The notes beneath the pieces were generated by a model. That model was not told where the DNA came from. It was given only the letters and a program-made list of their open reading frames with translations, and made no database searches. The translations under genes and the position numbers were made by a program. DNA of 64,000 bases. Source: Flavisolibacter sp. (GTDB lineage Bacteria; Bacteroidota; Bacteroidia; Chitinophagales; Chitinophagaceae). Shown piece after piece: positions 46,194-48,612 of this stretch. Positions within the stretch are counted from its first letter, which is position 1; each line of letters begins with the position of its first letter. The stretch spans positions 85,654 to 149,653 of the forward strand of contig JAQBNG010000127.1 of the NCBI GenBank assembly GCA_028288675.1, written 5' to 3'.

Positions 46194-46517
46194 ATGATTA
46201 TGGAAAAAACCCTATCAGTAAAAGAAGATTTAAAGATTGATGCGATTCAATTAAAGAAAGCTGCACTTGTTTTCAGAGCTGTTAATCACAAGCTTCGCCA
46301 GCAGATCATAAAATTCATCAATCAGAACGGTAAAATTACCGTTACACAGATTTATGTAAAGCTTCGCCTTGAGCAATCTGTTGCTTCGCAGCATTTAGCC
46401 ATTTTACGCAAAGCCGGATTTGTAATTACAGAACGTGATGGTAAGTTTATTTACTATTCTGTTGACAAGAACCGCCTTGCTGAAGTGCATAAGATTGCAC
46501 AGGATTTATTGAAATAA
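46194..46517 (+). CDS. ArsR-family winged-helix regulator without Cys
   Basis: A 107-residue DNA-binding protein. Helix-turn-helix core NGKITVTQIYVKLRLEQSVASQHLAILRKAGFVITERDGKFIYYSV gives a clear ArsR/SmtB wing. It has no Cys, so it cannot be a thiol sensor like BigR or SqrR, and the usual metal-binding ELCVC motif is absent. The signal is unknown. The spacing to the MBL-rhodanese gene is 65 bases with a separate -7 box there, so they may or may not be linked. AT-rich palindromic sequence around 46108-46130 (GTATATATATG) could be its operator. Confidence 0.82.
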   Translation: MIMEKTLSVKEDLKIDAIQLKKAALVFRAVNHKLRQQIIKFINQNGKITVTQIYVKLRLEQSVASQHLAILRKAGFVITERDGKFIYYSVDKNRLAEVHKIAQDLLK

Positions 46518-46557
46518 GCTTTCATTTTCTTCACCTTTCCTTTAGTGGCGAATGATT

Positions 46558-46565
46558 TATTTTTG
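46558..46565 (+). promoter_or_regulatory. -7 box of MBL-rhodanese gene
   Basis: TATTTTTG, exact consensus, 17 bases before the start codon at 46583. Confidence 0.6.
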
Positions 46566-46582
46566 CTGCTAAAGGAAATTTT

Positions 46583-47992
46583 ATGTTCATTAAACAATTA
46601 TATACTGCTTGCTTAAGCGAGGCAGCTTACTTTATAGAAAGCGGCGGTGAAGCGGCAGTAGTTGACCCACTACGCGATATAGATGCCTACATTCAACTGG
46701 CTAAAGAACATAACGCCACGATAAAATATATCTTCGAAACACATTTTCATGCGGATTTTGTAAGCGGCCATTTAGACCTTGCAAAAGCAACCGGCGCCGT
46801 TATTGTTTATGGCCCTAAAACAGAAACGTCTTTTCCGGTGCATGTAGCAAATGACGGTGAAGTTTTTTCCGTTGGCAAACTGTCTGTTGAAGCGTTGCAT
46901 ACTCCCGGACATACCTTAGAATCTACCTGCTATCTTTTAAAAGACGAAGAGGGGAGACAGCATTGCATATTTACAGGCGATACGTTATTTGTTGGCGATG
47001 TAGGCCGCCCGGATCTTTCACAAGAAGGGGCAACTGAAACAATGGATGATTTAGCTGGTATGCTATATGAAAGCTTACAAAAGAAAATAGTTCCGCTGCA
47101 GGATGATGTAATTGTTTATCCTGCCCATGGACCGGGCAGCGCTTGTGGAAAAAACCTTGGCCCCGCTACTACCAGCACTATAGGCAAAGAAAAAGAAACC
47201 AATTATGCCTTAAAAGCAACTACTAAAGAAGCGTTCGTGAAAGCAGTTACCGATGGTCTTTCTGCACCCCCCCAATACTTTCCTATCAATGCAAAAATTA
47301 ATAAAGAAGGTTATGACAGCATAGCTAACATTTTAGAGAAAGGACTTCGGCCATTAAGCGTTGAGGAAGTAAAGAAATATAGCGCTACTGATGCCCTGAT
47401 TTTGGATACAAGACCTGCTTTGGAATTTACGCAGGGCTTTATTCCGGATTCTGTTTTTATTGGTTTAGAAGGCCGCTTTGCTGAGTGGGCAGGTAGCCTG
47501 CTGCCATTTGATAAGGAACTGATTTTAGTTTGCGAACCTGGTAAAGAAAAAGAAACTGTTACCCGCCTGGCAAGAGTTGGCTTTAGCAGAATGGAAGGGT
47601 TTTTACAAGGTGGTATGGAAGCGTGGAAAGCCGCTGGTGAATTACTTGATATGATTATTGATATAGAAGCTGACGAACTGGCTATGGATATTCCCTTTGA
47701 TCCCAACCTTGTAGTGGTTGACGTACGTCGCCCCACGGAGTTTGCCGATGGGCATGTAACTAATGCAATAAATTTATCGCTTAGCGAAATGACCGACCCT
47801 GCAACGATGGCGCAGTTTGGAGAAGAGCAAAACATTTATGTTCATTGCGCAGGTGGTTATAGAAGTGTTATTGCCGCCTCCTTATTAAAGCGGCAGGGCT
47901 TCCATAATTTACGTAATGTATCAGGTGGGTGGAGTGCAATTAAAGAGCAGAAAAAAATCAAAACTGAAAAAGAAAAAAGTGTATTGAATTAA
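46583..47992 (+). CDS. MBL-fold persulfide dioxygenase-like protein with two rhodanese domains
   Basis: A 469-residue protein of ETHE1-like metallo-beta-lactamase type (about 1-245) fused to two rhodanese domains (about 270-355 and 370-460). MBL motifs: FETHFHADFVSGH (H54, H56, D58, H63), HTPGHTLES, FTGDTLFVGDVGRPDL and YPAHGPGSACG. The first rhodanese has VCEPGKEKE at its loop; the second has a canonical active loop VHCAGGYRSV with Cys. It should oxidise glutathione- or protein-persulfides to sulfite and handle sulfane sulfur. Length and order are typical of Bacteroidota. Confidence 0.9.
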   Translation: MFIKQLYTACLSEAAYFIESGGEAAVVDPLRDIDAYIQLAKEHNATIKYIFETHFHADFVSGHLDLAKATGAVIVYGPKTETSFPVHVANDGEVFSVGKLSVEALHTPGHTLESTCYLLKDEEGRQHCIFTGDTLFVGDVGRPDLSQEGATETMDDLAGMLYESLQKKIVPLQDDVIVYPAHGPGSACGKNLGPATTSTIGKEKETNYALKATTKEAFVKAVTDGLSAPPQYFPINAKINKEGYDSIANILEKGLRPLSVEEVKKYSATDALILDTRPALEFTQGFIPDSVFIGLEGRFAEWAGSLLPFDKELILVCEPGKEKETVTRLARVGFSRMEGFLQGGMEAWKAAGELLDMIIDIEADELAMDIPFDPNLVVVDVRRPTEFADGHVTNAINLSLSEMTDPATMAQFGEEQNIYVHCAGGYRSVIAASLLKRQGFHNLRNVSGGWSAIKEQKKIKTEKEKSVLN

Positions 47993-48011: not shown

Positions 48012-48042
48012 AAAAAGCTGAGGGATAAACCCTCAGCTTTTT
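48012..48042 (+). terminator. Intrinsic terminator of MBL-rhodanese gene
   Basis: AAAAAGCTGAGGG / CCCTCAGCTTTTT with a 5-base loop (ATAAA), then T. 13-bp perfect stem. Confidence 0.92.
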
Positions 48043-48052
48043 TATAATCAAT

Positions 48053-48070
48053 ATACCCCTAAAAGGGTAT
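48053..48070. promoter_or_regulatory. NarL-type 7-2-7 dyad, site 1
   Basis: TACCCCTAAAAGGGTA at 48054-48069 reads as heptamer-AA-heptamer. The first half fits the NarL heptamer TACYYMT exactly; the reverse of the second half (TACCCTT) differs at one base. The symmetric core extends to ATACCC…GGGTAT. Confidence 0.5.
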
Positions 48071-48326
48071 TGTTTATATTTTTTTATTATTTGAGATTTA
48101 CAACGATTTTAATTTCTCTGTAGAGAGATGAAAATCAATTGTTTTTATTCTTAGTTGTACGAACGGGGGGCATGTCTATGTTCCCCTTTTTGTGTTTAAA
48201 TAGAAGCGTTACGTACCTTTTCAAACAATAATTAAAGAAACCTTTTTTGCAATACCATAGCCGCTTTGCAAGCATAGTACCTGTTTTGGTTAGATATTAT
48301 TTTAAATATTTATATCCTTGTTTATC

Positions 48327-48342
48327 TACCCCAAATTGGGTA
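48327..48342. promoter_or_regulatory. NarL-type 7-2-7 dyad, site 2
   Basis: TACCCCAAATTGGGTA, again 7-2-7 with TACCC…GGGTA outer symmetry identical to site 1. It ends 48 bases before the LuxR-type start codon. Confidence 0.5.
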
Positions 48343-48390
48343 TTTTTAAATAATACTGCATTTACGATCTTTACTAAAACCAGACAAAAC

Positions 48391-48612
48391 ATGCCACTGA
48401 TTATAACACCAAACGGAATGATAAATGATAGTCCGTTAACCCCCAGGGAAAGAGACGTATTACAACTCATAGCTGATGGCCTCCGTCAAAAACAAATTGC
48501 TGAACGATTATCTATCAGTCCGGAAACTGCCAGCAAACACATAAAAAATGCCTATAAAAAATTAGGAGCGCATAGTAAAGTAGATGCTTTGCGTAAATCG
48601 GGAATGTGGTAA
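48391..48612 (+). CDS. Solo LuxR/NarL-type HTH protein
   Basis: A 73-residue protein that is essentially one LuxR_C DNA-binding domain: SPLTPRERDVLQLIADGLRQKQIAERLSISPETASKHIKNAYKKLGAHSKVDALRK. The turn and recognition helix (QIAERLSISPETASKHI) are intact. There is no receiver or ligand domain. The frame is open 48 codons upstream to 48247, but the conserved part and the MPLIITPNG start favour 48391. Two 7-2-7 dyads upstream suggest autoregulation or regulation by a NarL-type factor (inference). Its stop is one base from the stop of the convergent acyltransferase. Confidence 0.82.
   Translation: MPLIITPNGMINDSPLTPRERDVLQLIADGLRQKQIAERLSISPETASKHIKNAYKKLGAHSKVDALRKSGMW

Follow-up and report, generated by a model that had tools for sequence, protein, structure and literature searches.

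A stretch of 64,000 nucleotides from Flavisolibacter sp. (contig JAQBNG010000127.1 of assembly GCA_028288675.1; hereafter the window) carries a compact locus that we read, with fair confidence, as a self-contained cassette in which a 73-aa activator would stimulate its own gene through one dyad (D3) and the output of a small RNA (sRNA) through another (D1). We give even chances to a broader proposal, in which the cassette would be a dedicated regulator–sRNA pair: a NarL-type activator lacking a receiver, whose only strict targets in the window genome would be a trans-acting sRNA and the promoter of the activator gene, the whole being gained or lost as one unit. Within a wider scheme of Bacteroidota, in which NarL-type regulators work through dyads fused to the -33 element and elsewhere mostly serve surface or secreted proteins, it would be the branch that makes an sRNA. 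No earlier description of the locus came up in the literature searched. Its features are the following:

48012..48045, plus strand: intrinsic terminator AAAAAGCTGAGGGATAAACCCTCAGCTTTTTT after the upstream MBL-rhodanese gene, read directly; isolates the cassette
48054..48069, no strand assigned: dyad D1, TACCCCTAAAAGGGTA, probable regulator site of the sRNA promoter; unique in the genome, kept at five of five orthologous loci
48070..48100, plus strand: predicted sRNA promoter, TTG (48070-48072), 20-nt spacer, -7 element GAGATTTA (48093-48100); TTG-N20-NANNTTTR at all five D1 sites
48105..48191, plus strand: candidate small RNA between promoter and terminator, predicted start about 48105; folding z -3.6 against shuffles
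48144..48160, plus strand: sRNA stretch TTTATTCTTAGTTGTAC, the same in all five genomes and probably the pairing region
48165..48191, plus strand: predicted sRNA terminator hairpin, loop GUCU, then a U-run; from a terminator scan and compensatory changes
48277..48292, no strand assigned: dyad D2, GTACCTGTTTTGGTTA, degenerate in the window and followed by GATATTA; aligned position in five of five loci
48327..48342, no strand assigned: dyad D3, TACCCCAAATTGGGTA, probable regulator site of the HTH gene promoter; unique in the genome, kept at five of five loci
48343..48373, plus strand: predicted HTH gene promoter, TTT, 20-nt spacer, -7 element GATCTTTA (48366-48373); spacing 19-20 at all five D3 sites
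48391..48612, plus strand: 73-aa solo LuxR/NarL-type DNA-binding protein; GerE E 3.4e-20, nearest solved protein the NarL output domain

A preliminary description of the locus had pointed to two 16-mers with a TACCC-N6-GGGTA frame, and both are found at 48054-48069 and 48327-48342. The window holds two such sites against 0.01 expected from shuffles, and the exact frame occurs twice in the whole 4.74 Mb genome, as D1 and D3. Allowing one mismatch brings the genome count to background (87 against 84 for a reversed-pattern control), on which ground a large strict regulon in the window genome was rejected. The first site had been noted to fit the NarL heptamer TACYYMT exactly on one side. Against the full 7-2-7 consensus (inverted heptamers with a 2 bp gap) D1 has one mismatch and D3 two, and searches at this tolerance gave nine sites against 6.1 expected, which is not significant alone; the dyads are probably NarL-type, and their TACCC/GGGTA frame is exact. 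It is this frame, rather than the consensus match, that is the standout feature. The DNA of the NarL–DNA complex 1je8, which we take to be the TACCCATTAATGGGTA palindrome, has the same frame.

The search for orthologues covered the genus set of 19 genomes and returned clear HTH orthologues in four (G005, G154, G157 and G159; 59-70% identity), the next relatives being full-length regulators or more distant solo proteins. All five loci share the MBL-rhodanese gene upstream and a convergent lipid A acyltransferase-like gene downstream. Whether orthologues keep the dyads had been named as the check to run, and D1 and D3 are present at all five loci with small changes, such as TACTCC in D1 of G005 and TACCAC in D1 of G157; the order D1-sRNA-D2-D3-HTH is whole in five genomes. 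Nine relatives without an HTH orthologue (G162, G163, G165, G155, G153, G151, G156, G107 and G161) have the two flanking genes adjacent or near, within the 1.5 kb examined, with neither dyads nor sRNA nor HTH gene in between. Because they are wholly present in five genomes or wholly absent in nine between the same two genes, the parts behave as one cassette. Upstream of it in the window, positions 46194-47992 encode an ArsR-type regulator followed by an MBL-fold/double-rhodanese protein, which looks like an operon for handling reactive sulfur (persulfide).

D2, overlooked in the preliminary description, lies 50-52 bp upstream of D3 in the five loci; it is a clear dyad in G154, G157 and G159, degenerate in the window and G005, and followed by GATAT or GTTAT throughout. 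DNA looping between D1 and D3, suggested earlier, is rejected as a conserved feature, as their spacings of 273, 189, 236, 238 and 237 bp (26.0, 18.0, 22.5, 22.7 and 22.6 helical turns) vary and share no helical phase; it is the D2–D3 spacing that is conserved instead.

Bacteroidota promoters have the consensus TAnnTTTG at -7 with TTTG near -33 (PMC7366714). Downstream of D1 and D3 the layout is 3 nt, 19-20 nt and then NANNTTTR, a relaxed form of the Bacteroidetes primary-sigma promoter, in 10 out of 10 cases, a count drawn from five related genomes and hence not from ten independent events. At other offsets the same element averages 0.05 of 10, none of 20,000 shuffles exceeds three, and none of the five D2 sites has it at a spacer of 19-20. 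The spacers between dyad and -7 element have diverged, so the geometry is not mere sequence identity, the genomes being nonetheless related. The 3 nt behind the ten dyads are TTG in six cases, TTT in three and GCG in one. A sigma-70 promoter scan was uninformative, as expected in Bacteroidota. Estimated from the element positions, the dyad centre would lie about 42-43 bp before the expected start, and the predicted 5' UTR of the HTH gene is only ~11-14 nt. The two dyads had been thought to flank a single leader. The layout points elsewhere: D1 would serve a short transcription unit of its own, at the promoter of that unit, which ends at a terminator near 48191, and D3 would serve the HTH gene's own promoter. 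By analogy, this geometry resembles class II activation by NarL.

The claim that the gene encodes nothing but a LuxR/NarL DNA-binding domain of 73 aa (48391-48612) was borne out: the protein scores 71.9 bits against Pfam GerE (cut-off 23.5), the LuxR/NarL (GerE) HTH domain standing alone. The predicted structure has four helices (18-28, 33-39, 44-58 and 63-70; mean pLDDT 78) and finds the NarL–DNA complex 1je8 as its top fold match, with GerE also among the top matches; by sequence, the NarL output domain is the closest of all solved chains in the PDB (4.6e-11). The protein falls outside the NarL equivalog family, being 73 aa long, without a receiver and scoring 44 bits against a cut-off of 250. 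Judged by sequence and modelled fold, it is close to a NarL output domain without the receiver. Its recognition helix reads TASKH against TVKVH in NarL, which counts against the best explanation. A search of genome contigs with the protein gave distant LuxR genes of other phyla only. A more distant solo HTH gene, 47% identical, lies elsewhere in the genus member G158 (L036, 1345-1500) with two dyads upstream, one of them followed by TTG-N20-CATATTTG, and no sRNA core between the two.

The most conserved intergenic part is the final 50 nt of the stretch downstream of D1, which comprises the invariant 17 nt, largely unpaired, the GUCU hairpin and the U-run. The stem is paired in 100% of the alignment cells and changes on both sides in four of its eight pairs, a covariation that comes from four distinct sequences only and is equalled by 25 of 500 shuffles. 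In G005 the predicted start lies a few nt before the conserved stretch, giving a minimal RNA of ~50-57 nt, and the predicted length elsewhere is ~85-95 nt. A covariance model of the RNA core, run on 399 family genomes, gave hits at E <= 1e-11 in the five cassette genomes and in no others; outside them the best value was 1.7e-4. Among the 16 Rfam 15 matches with E values up to 10, none came close to the gathering cut-off of its RNA family. Reading the five aligned sequences revealed no conserved ORF in the region, and the hairpin loop is GUCU in all five, with no other conserved hairpin, which does not correspond to an Rsm/Csr-type RNA. The predicted promoter, the terminator and the conserved sequence free of an ORF are features of bacterial intergenic sRNAs in general, and D1 thus precedes a candidate for a conserved small RNA gene, previously undescribed and absent from Rfam.

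Action of the sRNA on the HTH mRNA was considered and rejected, as the duplex energies were no better than those of shuffles. Pairing with the start region of the acyltransferase gene (-8.6 to -10.7 kcal/mol, computed without a shuffle control) was not convincing, and no target for the sRNA emerged. With a looser core pattern, a look-alike turned up behind an ABC-transporter-like gene in G071, G144, G168 and G228, with no dyad seen nearby. Terminator hairpins sharing the CATGTCTATG or CATTTCTATG loop occur at L185, L196 and L197 (G144, G228 and G168) and at L188, L189 and L195; at the first three, TTAGTTCTAC, similar to the sRNA core, precedes the hairpin after the ABC-transporter-like gene. 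This look-alike is possibly a distant relative of the sRNA, or else a favoured type of terminator.

The dyad promoter was also searched as a whole ([A/T]CCC-N6-GGG[A/T]ATTG-N21-ANNTTTR). The 399 family genomes hold 64 occurrences against four of the reversed pattern, and in a phylum-wide sample it occurs in six of 297 genomes, two of them from the family. A LuxR/NarL-type gene lies within the fetched 3 kb at 16 of 30 pattern loci, three of the 16 being the cassette itself, against 1 of 13 and 1 of 25 control loci (2 of 38). Frequently the order is a NarL-type regulator, a dyad promoter and a protein with a secretion-type start. In G103, G028 and G088 a histidine-kinase-like gene (~1150 aa) is followed by a response regulator (207 aa) and a solo HTH gene (~65 aa), with one dyad promoter ahead of the solo HTH gene and a second between it and the gene of a very large protein; G244 matches this order from the response regulator through the second dyad promoter. 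Solo HTH genes with dyad promoters are therefore a recurrent arrangement. The version in the window has no response regulator beside the solo HTH gene and, unlike the recurrent arrangement, appears to have an sRNA as its target.

Several further dyads were seen. At L217 (G103), L218 (G088), L219 (G028) and L221 (G244), dyad promoters of the TTCCCC-N4-GGGGAA type stand before and after the solo HTH gene, and the very large protein of the first three is of the secreted type; these loci, with the kinase gene seen in the first three, are possibly a two-step surface-protein switch. In several family genomes, TACCC-N6-GGGTA-TTG-N20 promoters lie ahead of secreted-type proteins (L242-L244, L247, L249 and L250). 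Five of these six loci also have a gene for a NarL-type regulator close by, and the promoters may mark regulons of regulators that are otherwise orphans. Other solo HTH genes of the family, 65-75 aa long, at L211 (G159) and L019/L220 (G050) have no TACCC dyad directly upstream; in G050 the dyad promoter lies beyond the HTH gene, directed towards a secreted-type protein. G154, G157 and G159 carry further AT-cored dyads, before a SusC-like gene, after a pdhB-like gene and in other intergenic positions, and regulons in these species may be wider and differ from one another. In the same three genomes a further solo HTH paralogue has dyads overlapping its -7 region (TACCAATTTTGGGGTA), in a different geometry, with no counterpart seen at the copy in the window genome (L051 in G000). 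The conserved dyad after the pdhB-like gene in these three species (L173, L177 and L178 in G154, G157 and G159), of TACCC type and accompanied by a T-run and a long AT-rich hairpin, is probably a terminator rather than an operator.

Our favoured reading of the cassette runs as follows. The 73-aa protein would bind the TACCC-N6-GGGTA dyads as a dimer and, placed at D1 and D3 against the -33 element, would help RNA polymerase with the Bacteroidetes primary sigma factor in a class II manner. D3 would drive the solo HTH gene, giving positive autoregulation, and the tandem D2, about five helical turns upstream, would aid D3 and make the self-activation cooperative. From D1 would come an sRNA of ~50-90 nt ended by the intrinsic terminator, whose 17-nt stretch probably pairs with other mRNAs in trans. 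Since the 73-aa protein has no receiver, its amount is the likely input, which would set the activity of the cassette, the sRNA being the main output in the window genome.

That the gene might be autoregulated had been proposed before, with the alternative that it is the target of a NarL-type regulator. Autoregulation by the solo protein is well supported by the sequence comparison, the dyad promoter of the HTH gene being conserved and D1 and D3 being kept in all five loci. The adjacent protein is favoured as the binder because there is no other exact dyad in the genome, and the part of the earlier proposal that invoked a separate regulator is less so. A different NarL-type response regulator on the dyads, with the solo protein as its target, helper or competitor, is rather unlikely. 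Such regulator genes do precede the solo HTH gene and dyad promoters in G103, G028, G088 and G244, and LuxR domains within one genome may share sites. Yet neither the window locus nor its orthologues contain a response regulator gene, the genome would offer such a regulator no other strict target, and the cassette is gained and lost jointly with the HTH gene.

The sign of the regulation is a separate matter. Were the solo protein to block RNA polymerase at -33 from the same dyads, it would repress both the sRNA and itself, as is common among small autoregulators; the dyads do abut the -33 element. We regard this as unlikely. The -7 element stands at a fixed distance on one side of the dyad, which is how class II activators are laid out (PMC7419079) and which a repressor would not need, and the -33 box is poor (TTT or GCG) at four of the five D3 promoters, as in activator-dependent promoters. 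Activation is favoured over repression because of this spacing and the weak boxes at D3.

The RNA might also serve the HTH gene as an attenuator or leader, with transcripts from D1 stopping at the hairpin unless a signal permits them to read on. The strand is the same, the terminator lies upstream of the HTH gene and some read-through could come from D1. This is nevertheless doubtful, given that D3 supplies the HTH gene with a conserved promoter of its own, that the invariant 17 nt precede the hairpin with no alternative pairing seen in the folds, and that no conserved leader ORF appears on reading the aligned sequences. That the dyads are themselves terminator hairpins, as a scan flagging D1 and D3 and the T-runs of the dyads after the pdhB-like gene in G154, G157 and G159 would have it, is highly improbable, for the T-run is absent at all D1 sites and at D3 of G154 and G159, a better terminator sits just before D1, and termination leaves the 10 out of 10 spacing to the -7 element unexplained.

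Several known systems come close to the cassette. At E. coli yeaR-yoaG, NarL activates through one 7-2-7 site placed immediately before -35; at ogt it does so through sites at -44.5 and -77.5 (PMC7419079). The cassette shares with these promoters the NarL-type domain, a 7-2-7 type dyad abutting -35/-33 and, with ogt, a tandem upstream site, which lies at 50-52 bp rather than 33 bp. It differs from NarL, which has a receiver and responds to nitrate, in lacking the receiver and in its Bacteroidetes promoter and predicted sRNA target. The protein also resembles GerE of Bacillus subtilis and PedR of cyanobacteria, proteins of ~74 aa that consist of the LuxR/NarL HTH only; the PedR family model matches it below the curated cut-off (38 against 120 bits). 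We know of no sRNA paired with either gene as a neighbour. No sequence relation is known between the cassette sRNA and the intergenic sRNAs of Bacteroides thetaiotaomicron, GibS among them, nor to our knowledge do these lie beside a NarL-type regulator. Like them, the cassette RNA, as judged from sequence, is AT-rich and largely unfolded and has a predicted promoter of its own (PMC7366714). The GacA-RsmX/RsmY/RsmZ system of Pseudomonas likewise joins a NarL/FixJ-type HTH regulator and a palindromic upstream site to sRNAs that are switched on (PMC2375449), although GacA carries a receiver and its palindrome is distant, and the cassette RNA is shorter and lacks repeated GGA loops.

The primary sigma factor of Bacteroidota is unusual, and little has been worked out about how activators act with it. 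The cassette offers a new candidate sRNA with a named candidate regulator, and what may be a compact self-activating switch. It also displays a short, recurrent promoter grammar, in which a dyad is followed by 3 nt, 19-20 nt and NANNTTTR, and the gene of the likely regulator lies beside it. This grammar would provide a route to predicting the targets of NarL-type regulators in the family, many of whose dyad promoters stand ahead of secreted or surface proteins.
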